Shown here: positions 29,871 to 35,309 of the stretch, in pieces
Numbering within the stretch: the first letter of the stretch is position 1
Layout of the letters: each line of letters begins with the position of its first letter
Source: an uncultured Desulfobacterales bacterium
Lineage (GTDB): Bacteria > Desulfobacterota > Desulfobacteria > Desulfobacterales > JAHEIW01
Direction of reading: 5' to 3'
DNA length: 64,000 nt
Assembly: GCA_947259495.1 (NCBI GenBank)
Contig: CAMYLV010000023.1
Coordinates: forward strand, 1 to 64,000
Position numbers and translations under genes: made by a program
Notes under the pieces: model-generated
Seen by the model: only the letters and a program-made list of their open reading frames with translations
The model's database searches: none
Told to the model about the DNA's origin: nothing

Positions 29871-29890
29871 ATATAAACCGGTTGGTATAT
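29871..29890. promoter_or_regulatory. TetR-type operator-like site, downstream of the tetR gene
   Basis: ATATAAACCGGTTGGTATAT, an imperfect palindrome centred on AACC/GGTT. On the minus strand it contains the same 14 bases, ATATACCAACCGGT, as the site upstream of the TetR gene at 30547. It lies between the TetR gene and the small exported protein gene, so it could control that gene or be the promoter region of a former neighbour. Confidence 0.55.
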
Positions 29891-29932: not shown

Positions 29933-30541
29933 TTATTTTTTTAGCTGTTGAATATAAAAACGAAGCTCTTTGACGGCCTGATCCAAAATGGCGGGGTCAC
30001 GGCTGCAGGCATGCAATGCGGCCGCGCCGTTTAAAGCAATAATGATATAGCGGGCGATGGCATTTAAATTTAAGTTTTCTTTCAGGAGGCCCTGCCGAGC
30101 AGCCTGCTTCAGCCAGGCACACAGCAAGCCGGCCAGCTGGTCAAAGCCCTGCAACAGATGACTGCTCAAGGCGGCTGATTGCCCGGAAAACTCCACCAGC
30201 ATGCTGTGGAAAAAGCAGCCGCCTTCAAACACCTGATTTCCCAGCTTTTTTTTGATATCATTTTCGATAAAGATTTGAATGCGCTCCAGAGGATCGGAAG
30301 CGGTGGGAATCCCATCAAAAACGACATCCCGCCAGATACGCAGGGCCTCATCGTAAACCGCATACCAGAGTTCTTCTTTGCTGGTAAAATGCCCGTAGAA
30401 TCCGCCCTTGGTTAAACCGGTGGCTGCCAAAATATCATTGATCGACGTGTTGTAATAGCCTTTGACGCAGAAAAGTTGCAGTGATTTTTCAATGATGCCC
30501 CGACGTGTTTGAATACCTTTAGCGACCATATATTTGTCCAT
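29933..30541 (-). CDS. TetR/AcrR family transcriptional regulator
   Basis: 202 residues. The N-terminal helix-turn-helix reads LQLFCVKGYYNTSINDILAATGLTKGGFYGHFTSKEELW, typical TetR. The C-terminal ligand domain resembles the TetR_C_6/AcuR-like type. Start ATG at 30541, or 30529. Its own upstream region (30547-30566) and its downstream flank (29871-29890) carry the same operator-like word, so autoregulation is likely. The effector is unknown. Confidence 0.92.
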   Translation of the reverse strand: MDKYMVAKGIQTRRGIIEKSLQLFCVKGYYNTSINDILAATGLTKGGFYGHFTSKEELWYAVYDEALRIWRDVVFDGIPTASDPLERIQIFIENDIKKKLGNQVFEGGCFFHSMLVEFSGQSAALSSHLLQGFDQLAGLLCAWLKQAARQGLLKENLNLNAIARYIIIALNGAAALHACSRDPAILDQAVKELRFYIQQLKK

Positions 30542-30546
30542 CCATA

Positions 30547-30566
30547 ATATACCAACCGGTCGTATT
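30547..30566. promoter_or_regulatory. TetR-type operator-like site upstream of the tetR gene
   Basis: ATATACCAACCGGTCGTATT starts 6 nt before the TetR start codon. Its first 14 bases are identical to the minus strand of the site at 29877-29890. ACCAACCGGT/ACCGGTYGGT-type palindromes are frequent TetR-family operators. Confidence 0.6.
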
Positions 30567-30678: not shown

Positions 30679-32241
30679 TCAATGCAAGGGGCCTCTGCGG
30701 TGTCGCTGCCCTGCACCTTGTGCCTTGCTCTGATCGACATACTTTTTTACCGTACGTCGATCGAGCCTCAGTCGCCTGGCCGTTTCGGCATAAGACCCGA
30801 CCCGGTCGTAAATCCAGGAGCAGTAAAGACCACACAGCTCCTCCAGCGTCAAAATTCCCTGACGGAAAGATGCCATCAGACCTTCTTCGGCAATGCTGTC
30901 CTTAACGATGGCCGGATGATACTCCCGGCGAATCATGATATTGCGGACACACTGTTCCAACTCGCGAATATTGCCCGGCCAGGTGTAATCCAATCCCAGT
31001 TTGTCCTTAATCCAGGACTTGACCTCCCCCGCGAGCTTTTCGCCTTCGCTGCCGGCCACCCGCTGGGAAATATACCCCACCAGGTCCCAGAGCACCTCCG
31101 GGGATTCATGCATCTGTTGGCGCAAAGAAGGCGTGGTGATGATGTCCGAACACAGCCGGTAATACAGGTCTTTTCTAAAATCGCCTTCTTCCATTGCCAG
31201 ATGGATGTCGCGATGGGTGGCCGCCACGATCTTGCCCTCAAATGCCAGGGTCTTGGTTGAACCCAGACGCTGAAACGTGCGGGCCTGGATCACGCGCAGC
31301 AGCTTGACCTGAACCAGCGGATCCAGCTCCCCGATTTCGTCTAAAAAAACGGTGCCCGCAGCCGGGCAAGCTTCCAGCCAGCCCTTGCGGTCCTCCAGCG
31401 CGCCGGTAAAAGCACCTCGCCGGTGGCCGAAGAGCTCCGATTCGACCAGTGTGGCTGGCAGCGCCGACAGGTTAATGGGAAAAAACGTATTAAAAAAATC
31501 GTCCTTAAACGTCCGTGTTTGAGGATTAAAGGGGATATATCGCGCCTGACCAATGGCCGTGGCCACCAGTTCCTTTCCCGAGCCGGTGGGCCCGAAGATA
31601 AGGGTTGCAAAATCCCCCATGCATTTGAAAAAGGACCGGCGATAGCGCCGCATGTCGTGGGTGAAAATGGAGTTCCAGACCGCCGCCCGTAGATTGGCCG
31701 CCACCGCTGACCGCCCGATTATCGCCCGAAATATATATAGAAACGCCCGGCGCACCTGGAATATACAGGCAAAAATATGAGCGGCTTCGGTTTTCTGAGG
31801 CAGGTCGTAGCCGGGTATGTCAAACAGGAGGCCCCAGTAGTGATTAAACTCTTTGAAATAGTCATAGGTCGGGCCCTTTTTAGGGTGAATAATGTCCTGT
31901 TTAAACTGCTGGGCGTAGTAATGGTAGACGAGAAACAGAGCCGTATCTTCATAAAGTTCAAGCTCTTTGCGTGTGGCCTGCATACCTTTTCGCAAACGCT
32001 CCTGCAGTTTCATCAGAAGGGGGTAGGCCCGGTCGGTTATTTTTTTGGTGTTGACCAGATGAAAATCGGGATCATCGCCCAGAAGGTTCCAGTCGGCCTT
32101 GGATTCATCGAACGCATCTCCCAGGGCCTCGCGTTCATATCGGATGCGCTCCGGTAAAAAGGGATTAACGTAATTGAGTTTGGAAACAATTTTGAGGAAA
32201 CGACAATCGTCAGGATTTAAAAACGCCACGGCATCCTCCAT
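30679..32241 (-). CDS. Sigma-54-dependent transcriptional activator with unrecognised N-terminal domain
   Basis: 520 residues. The AAA+ core about 200-430 has Walker A GPTGSGKE near 217, the sigma-54 contact loop GAFTGA near 277 and Walker B VFLDEIGELD. A Fis-type helix-turn-helix lies about 475-505 (YAETARRLRLDRRTVKKYV). The first 195 residues are helical, aromatic-rich and show no REC, PAS or GAF signature. The start may be ATG at 32241 or GTG at 32229, since GGAGG lies between them. It is divergent from the VIT/vWA-rhombosortase pair, whose promoter has a -24/-12 sigma-54 element, so it is the likely activator of that operon. Confidence 0.92.
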   Translation of the reverse strand: MEDAVAFLNPDDCRFLKIVSKLNYVNPFLPERIRYEREALGDAFDESKADWNLLGDDPDFHLVNTKKITDRAYPLLMKLQERLRKGMQATRKELELYEDTALFLVYHYYAQQFKQDIIHPKKGPTYDYFKEFNHYWGLLFDIPGYDLPQKTEAAHIFACIFQVRRAFLYIFRAIIGRSAVAANLRAAVWNSIFTHDMRRYRRSFFKCMGDFATLIFGPTGSGKELVATAIGQARYIPFNPQTRTFKDDFFNTFFPINLSALPATLVESELFGHRRGAFTGALEDRKGWLEACPAAGTVFLDEIGELDPLVQVKLLRVIQARTFQRLGSTKTLAFEGKIVAATHRDIHLAMEEGDFRKDLYYRLCSDIITTPSLRQQMHESPEVLWDLVGYISQRVAGSEGEKLAGEVKSWIKDKLGLDYTWPGNIRELEQCVRNIMIRREYHPAIVKDSIAEEGLMASFRQGILTLEELCGLYCSWIYDRVGSYAETARRLRLDRRTVKKYVDQSKAQGAGQRHRRGPLH

Positions 32242-32293
32242 ATGTTCAATCGACCGTTAAAAAACATCTGAGTTCCATGCAAAATTCAGATTA

Positions 32294-32306
32294 TACATTA
32301 ATTGTA
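32294..32306. promoter_or_regulatory. TACAT-N3-TTGTA palindrome, site 1
   Basis: TACATTAATTGTA, embedded in the longer near-palindrome TATACATTAATTGTATA. It shares the TACAT-N3-WTGTA pattern with two sites at 32484 and 32504. It lies about 53 nt before the activator start, which would fit autoregulation. Confidence 0.5.
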
Positions 32307-32483
32307 TATATTATTATATCTTACTGCAATAGATATAAATATTGAACAAAATATTTTAAAAACGCCCGAATCGAATCACAAAACAGTCTTTTTAAAAGGA
32401 AATAAACAGCATCGTCATATTTTATATCTTATTGTTAATATTATAAATTCCGTTTTTCAAATCCCATATTTCGGTAATAATTG

Positions 32484-32516
32484 TACATATAATGTATTTA
32501 ACTTACATTTTTTGTA
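32484..32516. promoter_or_regulatory. Tandem TACAT-N3-WTGTA palindromes, sites 2 and 3 (candidate enhancer)
   Basis: TACATATAATGTA (32484-32496) and TACATTTTTTGTA (32504-32516), 20 bp apart centre to centre, i.e. on the same face of the helix. They lie about 115-145 bp upstream of the -24/-12 promoter, the usual distance for the enhancer of a sigma-54 activator. The region is AT-rich, which raises the chance background, but three copies in this spacer and the spacing are suggestive. Confidence 0.55.
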
Positions 32517-32629
32517 TTAATTTTTACCTATTTTATTCGCGTTTATCCAAATATGTGCCGCCCGGATAAAATTATATTTATAATAATTTAAGTTTGTTAA
32601 ATAATTTAAGGGGCCTAAATTGGTACTTC

Positions 32630-32645
32630 TGGCACAGGCGTTGCT
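32630..32645 (+). promoter_or_regulatory. Sigma-54 (-24/-12) promoter of the VIT/vWA operon
   Basis: TGGCACAGGCGTTGCT is a full match to the TGGCAC-N5-TTGCW consensus, located 39 nt before the ATG of the VIT/vWA gene and on its strand. The divergently encoded sigma-54 activator gives independent support. The remainder of the 32242-32593 spacer is very AT-rich with no gene. Confidence 0.85.
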
Positions 32646-32683: not shown

Positions 32684-34684
32684 ATGCAAAAAGCAATCAT
32701 CTCGATTATACTCATTGCAGCCTTCGGTCTAACCGCCAGCGTCTGCCACGCCGCCGGAATACTGACCCCGGTGGGATCGCGGCATCAACCGATTCAAATC
32801 CGCGACCACCACGTCAATGTGGTCATCAATAACGGCTTTGCCATGACTGAGGTGCAGCAGACCTTTTACAATCCAAACACCGAAGATCTTGAAGCCATGT
32901 ATAGTTTCCCCCTGCCCAAAAGCGCCAGCCTCTCGGAGGTCACCATCTATGTGGGCGAACGCGAAATTCATGGTGAAGTGCTGGAGAAGTTAAAAGCCCA
33001 GCAGATCTATGAAGACGAAAAAAGCAAGGGCAATGAAACCGGACTGGCTGAGAAAAATGAATTTTATACCTTTGAGTTCAAGGTCCATCCGGTGCCGGCC
33101 AACGCTGAAACCCGGATCCGGTTCCTTTACTACCAGCCGCTAAAAATCGACACCGGCATCGGCCGCTACCTGTATCCGTTGGAAGAAGGCGGTACCGACG
33201 AAGCGGGCATGAGCTTCTGGACCACCCATGCCAAAGTGGAAAATACCTTTTCCATGAGCCTGGAGTTAAAATCTGCCTATCCGATTAAAGATGTGCGCGT
33301 GCCCGGATTTGAGGCCGCTGCCACAATCAACAAACTGGGAGAAGATCATTATAAGCTGGAAATGCAACTGAGAGACATGAACTTAACCCGCGACGTTATT
33401 TTCTACTACCGCTTACAGGAAGGCCTGCCCGGACGGGTGGAAGTCATCCCGTTTCGGGATAACGAAAATGAGGACGGCGCTTTTATGATGGTCATCACTC
33501 CGGGAGTGGACTTAAAGCCCTTGACCAACGGTGCCGACTACTGCTTCGTTCTGGATATTTCCGGAAGCATGCAGGCCAAGATGGCCACTTTAAAACGGGG
33601 CGTCATGCAGGCCCTTGAAAAACTTAAACCCGAAGATCGCTTCCGGTTTGTCACCTTTGAAAGCCAGGCCCGTGAGCTGAACCGCGACTGGCTGCCGGCC
33701 AACCCGGACGGGTTGATCAAAGCCAAACAACTCCTGGAACCGCTTAATGCCAGGGGCAGCACCAACCTGTACGCCGGACTCGATCTGGGGCTTAAACGGC
33801 TGGATGACGACCGCGCGGTCAATATTGTCCTGGTCACCGATGCCGTTACCAACACGGGCATCGTCGATCCAATTGATTTCCATAAACTTTTGCGAAAGGT
33901 GGATGTCCGCATTTATGGCTTTTTGCTGGGCAACAGCGCCAACTGGCCCCTGATGCAGACGATTACCGAGACGTCCGGCGGGTTTTATGACAGCATCTCA
34001 AATGTGGACGACATCATGGGTAAGCTCATGCTGGCGGGCAGTAAAATCAACTACGAAGCCCTGCTCGACGCCCGCGTTAAATTTTCAGGTGTCAAGGTCA
34101 CCGACCTGACCGATGACACCTTTAAAAAAGTCTACCGCGGCCAACAACTGGTCTTGTTCGGTAAATACAACCAGGGCGGCAATGCGCGTTTAACCCTGGA
34201 AGCCAGCCTGACAGGCGAGGATAAAACCTACACCAGCGAATTTGTTTTCCCGGATATCGACACGGAAAATCCGGAACTGGAGCGGCTCTGGGCCCTGGCG
34301 ACTATAGAAAAGATTGAGGCCATGGAGCGCATTGGCAAAATGGTGCCGACCGAGTCAGAAAACGCCATCCGGGATCTGGGACTGCAATATCAGATCGTCA
34401 CCGATTACACTTCAATGGTCGTGCTTTCCGATACCGCTTTCGCCGACCGCGGGATCGAGCGCCATAACCAGACCCGTATCGCCCGTGAGCAGCAGGCCCG
34501 GGTCCAGCGCAGCCAGCAGTCCGCCAAAAATTACCGGGTGGACCGCAAAAAGCCGGCCTTTAAGCATAAGGTCCCGAGTCTGGGCGGTGGTGGCGGTGCC
34601 ATCGATCCGCTGACCGGTGTGCTGGGGATTTTAATCACAACCGCCGGAGCTGTCCGGCTCGCTCTGCGAAGGAAAAAGCGCTAA
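32684..34684 (+). CDS. Exported VIT and vWA domain protein with GlyGly-CTERM-like tail
   Basis: 666 residues from ATG 32684 behind AAGGAGG. The signal peptide ends near residue 23 (SVCHAAG). The VIT domain spans about 30-160 (HHVNVVINNGFAMTEVQQTF, NEFYTFEFKVHPVPANAETR). The vWA domain spans about 285-450 with an intact MIDAS start, DISGSM. The tail is GGGGGAIDPLTG, a hydrophobic stretch of about 18 residues and RRKKR at the very end. This Gly-rich/hydrophobic/basic layout resembles GlyGly-CTERM signals, and PLTG also recalls the LPXTG box of the marine proteobacterial sortase-target family to which the rest of the protein is similar. The next gene is a rhombosortase-like protease, its likely processing enzyme. 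It should end up on the outer surface or periplasmic side. Confidence 0.9.
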   Translation: MQKAIISIILIAAFGLTASVCHAAGILTPVGSRHQPIQIRDHHVNVVINNGFAMTEVQQTFYNPNTEDLEAMYSFPLPKSASLSEVTIYVGEREIHGEVLEKLKAQQIYEDEKSKGNETGLAEKNEFYTFEFKVHPVPANAETRIRFLYYQPLKIDTGIGRYLYPLEEGGTDEAGMSFWTTHAKVENTFSMSLELKSAYPIKDVRVPGFEAAATINKLGEDHYKLEMQLRDMNLTRDVIFYYRLQEGLPGRVEVIPFRDNENEDGAFMMVITPGVDLKPLTNGADYCFVLDISGSMQAKMATLKRGVMQALEKLKPEDRFRFVTFESQARELNRDWLPANPDGLIKAKQLLEPLNARGSTNLYAGLDLGLKRLDDDRAVNIVLVTDAVTNTGIVDPIDFHKLLRKVDVRIYGFLLGNSANWPLMQTITETSGGFYDSISNVDDIMGKLMLAGSKINYEALLDARVKFSGVKVTDLTDDTFKKVYRGQQLVLFGKYNQGGNARLTLEASLTGEDKTYTSEFVFPDIDTENPELERLWALATIEKIEAMERIGKMVPTESENAIRDLGLQYQIVTDYTSMVVLSDTAFADRGIERHNQTRIAREQQARVQRSQQSAKNYRVDRKKPAFKHKVPSLGGGGGAIDPLTGVLGILITTAGAVRLALRRKKR

Positions 34685-34685
34685 A

Positions 34686-35309
34686 ATGGCGATCCCGACA
34701 ATAACCGGCAACATCACCAATATCGAACGTCAGGCAGTGGGGCGCATCCCATGCGCCTCACTGCTGCTCACCCTGGTGGCGGTGATCATCCACCTGACAA
34801 ATGGTCTACGGGTGGAGCTGCTTTATGAACGCACCGCTCTGGCCGATATGGCGCTATGGCGAGCGGTGACCTGTCACTGGGTACATTTGAACTGGGATCA
34901 TCTGTTCTGGTCGGGTGCCACGTTTTTGTTTCTGGGTTCGGTGTGTGAAATACTGGATAAGAAAAAGACTTACCAGACGCTTGTTATCGCGGTGGTTCTC
35001 ATTCCCGCCACCATCTGGGGGGGCCTGCCGGAGCTTAAAATTTACGGCGGCTTATCGGGGCTGGATTGCGCCCTTTACGCATTGCTGTTTGCGTTGCTCA
35101 TCAAGCGCGAAATGCGATCAAGCAACCGGATGTGGGCTGTATTTTATGCAGTGGGCTTGGTGGCCTTGCTGGCCAAAGTAACCTACGAAACGACTACCGG
35201 CCAGACCATTTTTGTCGCCAATACCCATTCCGGTATGATCCCCGTCCCGCTATCTCATCTGGCGGGCGGGTTTGTCGGATTCAGTGTCGGCATCCGCAAA
35301 ACGTCATAA
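34686..35309 (+). CDS. Rhombosortase-like rhomboid-family intramembrane protease
   Basis: 207 residues, small as rhombosortases are, with about six membrane helices. The catalytic Ser is in GGLSG (Ser about 124) and the catalytic His in SHLAGG (His about 191). The WRAVTCHWVHLNWDHL segment (59-74) matches the W-R-x-x-T-x-x-x-x-H...H loop of the family. It begins 1 nt after the VIT/vWA stop, so it is translationally coupled to its presumed substrate. Rhombosortases cleave GlyGly-CTERM tails. A general rhomboid protease is the alternative. Confidence 0.82.
   Translation: MAIPTITGNITNIERQAVGRIPCASLLLTLVAVIIHLTNGLRVELLYERTALADMALWRAVTCHWVHLNWDHLFWSGATFLFLGSVCEILDKKKTYQTLVIAVVLIPATIWGGLPELKIYGGLSGLDCALYALLFALLIKREMRSSNRMWAVFYAVGLVALLAKVTYETTTGQTIFVANTHSGMIPVPLSHLAGGFVGFSVGIRKTS

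Follow-up and report, generated by a model that had tools for sequence, protein, structure and literature searches.

Palindromes and the -24/-12 Element in the Window

A 64,000-nucleotide stretch of an uncultured Desulfobacterales genome, hereafter called the window, raised the question of whether the short palindromes located in front of a -24/-12 promoter serve as the enhancer of the sigma-54 activator encoded beside them. Our analysis leads to the view that two of these palindromes, denoted B1 and B2, very probably constitute a tandem enhancer for this activator, P0001, driving the sigma-54 promoter at 32630. An earlier note on the window had claimed tandem palindromes 20 bp apart and a third copy at 32294, which were located exactly as described. 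The 13-mers are TACATATAATGTA at 32484, TACATTTTTTGTA at 32504, and TACATTAATTGTA at 32294, of which the starts of the former two are separated by 20 bp. The 13-mer word occurs at three places in the 64 kb, one of them matching on both strands, while shuffled sequences gave a mean of 0.16 and a count of 4 was reached by 1 of 100 shuffles. All three copies are packed within 223 bp.

The sigma-54 promoter predicted from the sequence, TGGCACAGGCGTTGC on the forward strand (32630–32644), is the sole perfect match (0 mismatches) to TGGCAC-N5-TTGC in the window, and this element is kept in all four close orthologues. The distance from the tandem 13-mers to the T of TGGCACAGGCGTTGC was 146 and 126 bp when measured from their starts, and 134 and 114 bp from their ends, in agreement with the 115–145 bp given previously. 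The predicted enhancer palindrome B1 (TGTACATATAATGTATT, 32482–32498), which contains the exact word, is centered at -140 from the T of TGG; its leave-one-out score with a position weight matrix (PWM) was 13.5 bits, equalled by none of 60 shuffles. The predicted palindrome B2 (CTTACATTTTTTGTATT, 32502–32518) is centered at -120, two helical turns from B1, and occupies the -118/-120 position of the activator family described below. It also holds the exact 13-bp word and is a weaker copy, scoring 9.1 bits with a fixed background and less than 8 bits in leave-one-out scoring. The third copy, denoted site A (TATACATTAATTGTATA, 32292–32308), gave the top score in the window (17.8 bits). All the copies reported in the earlier note are present, with two refinements: within the tandem pair, the 32504 copy is weaker than its partner, and the one at 32294 is a separate strong site off the ladder of positions that characterizes the family.

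Elsewhere in the window, ACCGGTTGGTATA at 29877–29889 and its inverted copy at 30548–30560 flank a TetR-like regulator gene (29933–30541, reverse strand; family assigned by eye), and this pair is likely to represent the operators of the flanked regulator.

Structure of the Divergent Activator P0001

P0001 is a 520-residue sigma-54 activator encoded on the reverse strand (30679–32241), divergently from the promoter, as identified by PF00158, an AlphaFold model, and the family alignment. It consists of an all-helical N-terminus (residues 1–204), an AAA+ domain (210–440), and a predicted C-terminal helix-turn-helix (HTH) with LDRRTVKKYV. The sigma-54 interaction AAA+ domain (Pfam PF00158) was detected at 154.8 bits over residues 210–364, and the Foldseek matches of P0001 were FleQ, NifA, and other sigma-54 activators. 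The GAFTGA loop makes the contact to sigma-54. It lies at residues 276–281 of P0001, where G276, T279, G280, and A281 are invariant and F278 is nearly so among 61 sequences of the family. P0001 is of the one-component type, with no receiver domain among its Pfam hits. The AlphaFold model is confident (mean pLDDT 89) and shows three parts, in which the C-terminus forms three helices at 466–514. This region gave no Pfam HTH hit at E ≤ 0.001, and its LDRRTVKKY segment is nearly invariant. In the 61 activators, whose identity to P0001 goes down to 34%, the recognition region LDRRTVKKYI is nearly invariant; D494, R496, and T497 are strictly conserved, and R495, V498, K499, K500, and Y501 are nearly so. 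Such a recognition helix, nearly invariant across the family, fits one common word.

The all-helical N-terminal domain (31630–32241 of the window) is conserved across the activator family and presumably senses a signal. When this domain alone was compared with the PDB by Foldseek, no match was obtained at E ≤ 0.001, and sequence searches of the PDB and Pfam returned nothing convincing. The best VIA-align scores (Z = 5.2, for a CNOT3 chain and 14-3-3 proteins) are under the chance level for helical bundles, and these candidates were rejected.

A Common Word in the Activator Family

Relatives of P0001 (E ≤ 0.001) were detected in all 146 searched genomes of the order, among which the true family members, taken as those that exceed about 290 bits across most of their length, have a patchy distribution. 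No family activator was found in the three other genomes of the same genus, and four close orthologues of P0001 (69–71% identical) are present in another family of the same order. Activators 48–52% identical to P0001 were also observed in MAGs of Acidobacteria, Sumerlaeota, Hydrogenedentota, and other Desulfobacterota-type lineages (L147, L148, L149, L150, L163, and L128). Such identity beyond the order, compared with about 37% for the order's own paralogues, suggests horizontal transfer.

In a first count, 38 sites with at most one mismatch were found in the 450 bp upstream of 61 family activators, at 27 of the 61 loci, for which 3.5 sites are expected from dinucleotide shuffles. A training set was then derived from 69 family loci, of which 48 have a promoter score of at least 15 out of 16.5; two loci with doubtful promoters (L069 and L071) and one duplicate (L054, of L040) were left out by hand, giving 45. 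A Gibbs sampler supplied with no motif and applied to the 170 bp upstream of these 45 promoters returned TATACAT-N3-ATGTACA with a score of 429, whereas 8 runs on shuffled sequences gave at most 242. The word TACAT-N3-WTGTA proposed in the earlier note agrees with this de novo result, except that the recognized length is 17 bp and not 13. In the leave-one-out test, the matrix for the locus of the window was built without its own clade; at least 95% of shuffles were beaten at 40 of the 45 loci, and a significant site was absent at 5. Sites of at least 10 bits numbered 60 in the 2.9-kb promoter slot of the same loci, compared with 8 within ORFs (393.5 kb) and none in the remaining 33.1 kb of non-ORF DNA; as the PWM was trained in the promoter slot, the held-out test weighs more than this density.

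For the held-out test 37 loci were examined, of which 28 have a promoter, a proportion not strictly comparable with the 48 of 69 above since promoter scoring was relaxed for this set. Five loci that repeat earlier ones or are too short or incomplete (L135, L140, L146, L160, and L165) are excluded from this set, and the weaker, general activators L170–L226 lie outside it. A significant site was detected at 23 of the 28 loci, including those of Verrucomicrobiae DG1235, Cerasicoccus, and MAGs of Acidobacteria, Kiritimatiellae, Hydrogenedentota, and Betaproteobacteria; the remaining five, with a promoter and no significant site, are L156, L157, L167, L168, and L169. Conservation in orthologous and paralogous spacers, which had been named as a check of the word, is hence borne out. 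As far as the sequences can tell, one word recurring at similar distances next to related activators in several phyla looks like a regulatory code that a family of little-studied regulators has in common.

Position and Helical Phasing of the Sites

The centers of the sites form a ladder at about -96, -107, and -118 from the T of TGG, to which -140 is added in the clade of the window. Among 44 pair spacings, 22 bp occurred 21 times, 11 bp 16 times, 21 bp 3 times, and 20 bp once. The spacing in the clade of the window is 20–21 bp (20 bp for the window pair) versus the 22 bp of the family. The 11-bp spacing partly reflects self-overlap of the palindrome, which does not explain the 22-bp spacing. 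An 11-bp period was also obtained from the held-out positions alone (32 sites, Rayleigh p of about 4e-8), where the p-value, like the others of this analysis, is inflated because the loci are related and hence non-independent. In a MAFFT alignment of five close spacers, the tandem region was only partly in register, so that positions were read from motif scores. With a minimum leave-one-out score of 8 bits, 3 of the 5 clade members carry a site in the -140 slot and 4 of the 5 carry one at -119/-120; by eye, the remaining copies are degenerate. The conservation, fixed positions, and mostly 11/22-bp spacing support the earlier proposal that the palindromes are the putative enhancer of the adjacent activator.

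The palindromes might instead be operators through which the activator, or another protein, represses the divergent promoter of the activator gene, and their place before the sigma-54 promoter would be incidental. The start of the activator is about 50 bp away from site A, the strongest copy, and most family spacers are short, so that the sites are near the activator gene as well (median 45 bp). The positions nevertheless speak for the other end of the spacer. In spacers spanning 98 to 630 bp, the distance from TGG to its nearest site has an SD of 12.9 bp, whereas that separating the first site from the activator start has an SD of 77.3 bp (n = 39 of 45 for both the spacers and these distances); in long spacers the sites stay with the promoter. 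Candidate trans promoters, described below, further bear the ladder without an adjacent activator gene. The sites thus track TGG and not the activator start, which is the behavior of a sigma-54 promoter enhancer rather than of a plain autoregulatory operator, and we consider the operator explanation improbable for the palindromes.

Site A itself behaves differently from the ladder. The 13-mer TACATTAATTGTA starts 53 bp from the activator ATG (32241), and all five members of the clade of the window have a similarly strong far site (15.5–19.5 bits) located over 300 bp from the promoter; elsewhere in the family, one far site was found, at -216 of locus L057. The far site is located 45–58 bp from the activator start in 3 of the 5 clade members; in L031 and L092, the distance is 326 and 186 bp, respectively, with extra DNA between the site and the activator start. 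Its distance to TGG is variable (304–337 bp) and off the promoter ladder. Site A probably represents control of the activator over its own gene, and it possibly split off as the spacer grew.

Another word, TTTACA-N5-TGTAAA or similar, precedes the sigma-54-like promoters of L227, L253, and L230 at about -118, and a type IV pilin gene comes next in L227 and L253. It possibly belongs to another activator with the same geometry.

Divergent Genes and Candidate Trans Sites

The genes divergent from the activator vary among the 61 loci; VIT/VWA genes account for 13 and PUFA-type polyketide synthase or acyltransferase genes for 18, and others include M48 peptidase, MoeA, and NfeD. This indicates that the common factor is the activator and not the target. 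In L051, L035, L048, L053, and others, the gene transcribed divergently from the activator paralogue is a giant PUFA-type polyketide synthase or acyltransferase gene, and the family may thus control secondary-lipid synthesis in sulfate reducers.

An unbiased search for the composite of site and promoter in the 146 genomes gave 31 matches, against 4 control matches. Thirty of the 31 were inspected; 10 of them adjoin a family activator and 2 a general activator, and 18 have no activator in the locus. Several of these 18 show full ladders, and the genes that follow are of the acyltransferase, BadF-like, short-chain dehydrogenase, or radical SAM type (functions assigned by eye). L235, L254, L236, and L249 combine a ladder with a sigma-54 promoter in front of an acyltransferase, a BadF-like, or a short-chain dehydrogenase gene and have no activator gene in the locus; these four are candidate trans targets. 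In two genomes with ladder sites (G089 and G074), no family HTH was detectable, meaning that the word is not exclusive or that these are chance sites.

The latter two genomes are what could be adduced if an unrelated transcription factor bound the palindromes and modulated the same promoter. The word, on the other hand, tracks the activator family through several phyla and many target types, and the recognition helix of the family is nearly invariant. The exact word is moreover absent within 250 bp of the 18 other TGGCAC-N5-TTGC promoters of the host genome. We therefore regard this explanation as very unlikely. Single-mismatch copies occur at 2 of these 18 promoters, one each, at -76 and -91; this outcome of a genome scan that the earlier note had suggested is in favor of its word.

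Specificity of the Word in the Host Genome

Six other AT-rich stretches of the window (1.3 kb in total, GC < 32%) contain no site at one mismatch or fewer, so that the comparison with other AT-rich spacers also turned out in favor of the word. In the host genome, the bare 10-base word is not enriched (15 matches versus 17 for its reversed control), and the 17-bp word with up to two mismatches was found at 11 places, equal to the reversed control. The genome has 11 other occurrences of the bare word, several within reading frames, and none of these 11 has a sigma-54-like element 60–250 bp downstream. The composite site-plus-promoter pattern has exactly one match in the host genome, which is this locus. 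In this genome, the word hence marks one locus and not a wide regulon. The genome also has a single member of the activator family, with which the locus looks like a dedicated local circuit. The bare word is no commoner than its control, as would suit chance palindromes in an AT-rich spacer, but this explanation is scarcely credible, since three copies lie within 223 bp and the word is phased and conserved in relatives, including the held-out loci.

Predicted Target Genes

The first predicted target gene (32684–34684, forward strand) encodes P0002, a VIT/VWA protein with Pfam VIT and VWA domains and a GlyGly-TM-basic tail. It scored 220 bits against TIGR03788, which is under the cut-off. The tail has a layout of GGGGG, a hydrophobic segment, and RRKKR, as judged by eye; of the GlyGly-CTERM models, TIGR03867 alone gave a weak score, 12.5 bits, which is under its cut-off of 19.7. 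The second predicted target gene (34686–35309, forward strand) encodes a rhombosortase, P0003, which scored 89.5 bits against TIGR03902 with a cut-off of 84. P0002 and the adjoining rhombosortase (32684–35309) are likely to form a one-substrate sorting pair under sigma-54 control. According to the available part of a study (PMC3237569), single-target rhombosortases often adjoin their target, and VIT/VWA-type proteins bear GlyGly-CTERM-type tails. The dedicated rhombosortase/GlyGly-CTERM pairs described there resemble P0002/P0003, and sigma-54 control is absent from their description in that part of the text. A full-text literature search for rhombosortase together with sigma-54 found no paper.

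Comparison with Known sigma-54 Systems

NifA is a sigma-54 activator that binds as a dimer to the palindromic UAS TGT-N10-ACA, pairs of which may bind cooperatively, as stated in the accessible portion of PMC10590331. NifA and P0001 are alike, as far as that portion goes, in being sigma-54 activators with a palindromic upstream site, which is predicted for P0001. The core of the P0001 family, TGTACAT-N3-ATGTACA, corresponds to TGT-N11-ACA with a conserved inner CAT...ATG, in contrast to the TGT-N10-ACA of NifA, and the N-terminus is helical in P0001 and a GAF domain in NifA. Identification of P0001 as NifA was rejected, because its score against TIGR01817, which is its best NCBIfam score and covers the AAA+ part only, was 185.4 against an equivalog cut-off of 528.85.

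A second resemblance is to PrsR and motif 1 of proteobacterial PEP-CTERM genes. The sections of PMC1569441 that were available describe a conserved, sometimes repeated motif at a set distance before a -24/-12 promoter, which precedes genes for surface proteins on which a C-terminal sorting enzyme acts; the last bases of motif 1 are TTTACA, and its spacer measures 62.8 bp (SD 10.6). Unlike the one-component P0001, PrsR carries a receiver domain and is partnered by a kinase, and the word of the P0001 family is a different palindrome with centers 96–140 bp before TGG. P0001 was also rejected as PrsR, with 164.8 versus 502.6 bits for TIGR02915 and no receiver domain among the Pfam hits. For the one-component sigma-54 activators of Desulfovibrio vulgaris, operator palindromes have been predicted ahead of conserved sigma-54 promoters in the vicinity of the activator gene, including an AT-rich one for DVU2275, as given in the accessible text of PMC4641369. 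Unlike the word identified here, no TACA or TGTA string appears in the available main text of that study (PMC4641369). A literature search on the motif together with sigma-54 gave mostly unrelated papers among 15 of its 641 matches, and neither this nor the related searches brought up a description of the activator family or the motif, which does not prove its absence.

An enhancer with its activator is thus of a known sigma-54 kind, and what is unusual is that the position is nearly fixed, in phase with the helix, and conserved across phyla. If B1 and B2 act as the tandem enhancer of P0001, two P0001 dimers would bind to them (32482–32518) via the C-terminal HTHs, both on the same side of the helix and separated by about two turns. 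The intervening DNA would loop, so that the AAA+ domains could reach the closed complex of the sigma-54 RNA polymerase at TGGCACAGGCGTTGC and contact sigma-54 through the GAFTGA loop. The AAA+ domains would then use ATP to open the complex, leading to transcription of the VIT/VWA and rhombosortase genes, and site A would probably let P0001 control its own gene.

Beyond this locus, we hold with moderate confidence that one-component sigma-54 activators with a putative helical sensor domain form a family spanning several phyla and use a single enhancer code, composed of TGTACA half-sites on an 11-bp ladder with near-fixed, helix-phased centers (about -96, -107, -118, and -140) from the -24 element, and that targets such as rhombosortase systems, PUFA-type polyketide synthases, and acyltransferases can be common to several paralogues of one cell. 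Most sigma-54 enhancers are regarded as movable. With the array at a near-fixed, helix-phased distance, the enhancer would, on the same moderately held reading, be position-locked and not freely placed. The near-fixed ladder across phyla makes a requirement for the face of the helix and the length of the loop directly testable. The activator family would gain a specific DNA word with strict spacing rules, by which its targets, including those in trans, may be listed in any genome. This may provide an entry point to the control of a dedicated rhombosortase system and of secondary-lipid synthases in sulfate reducers.
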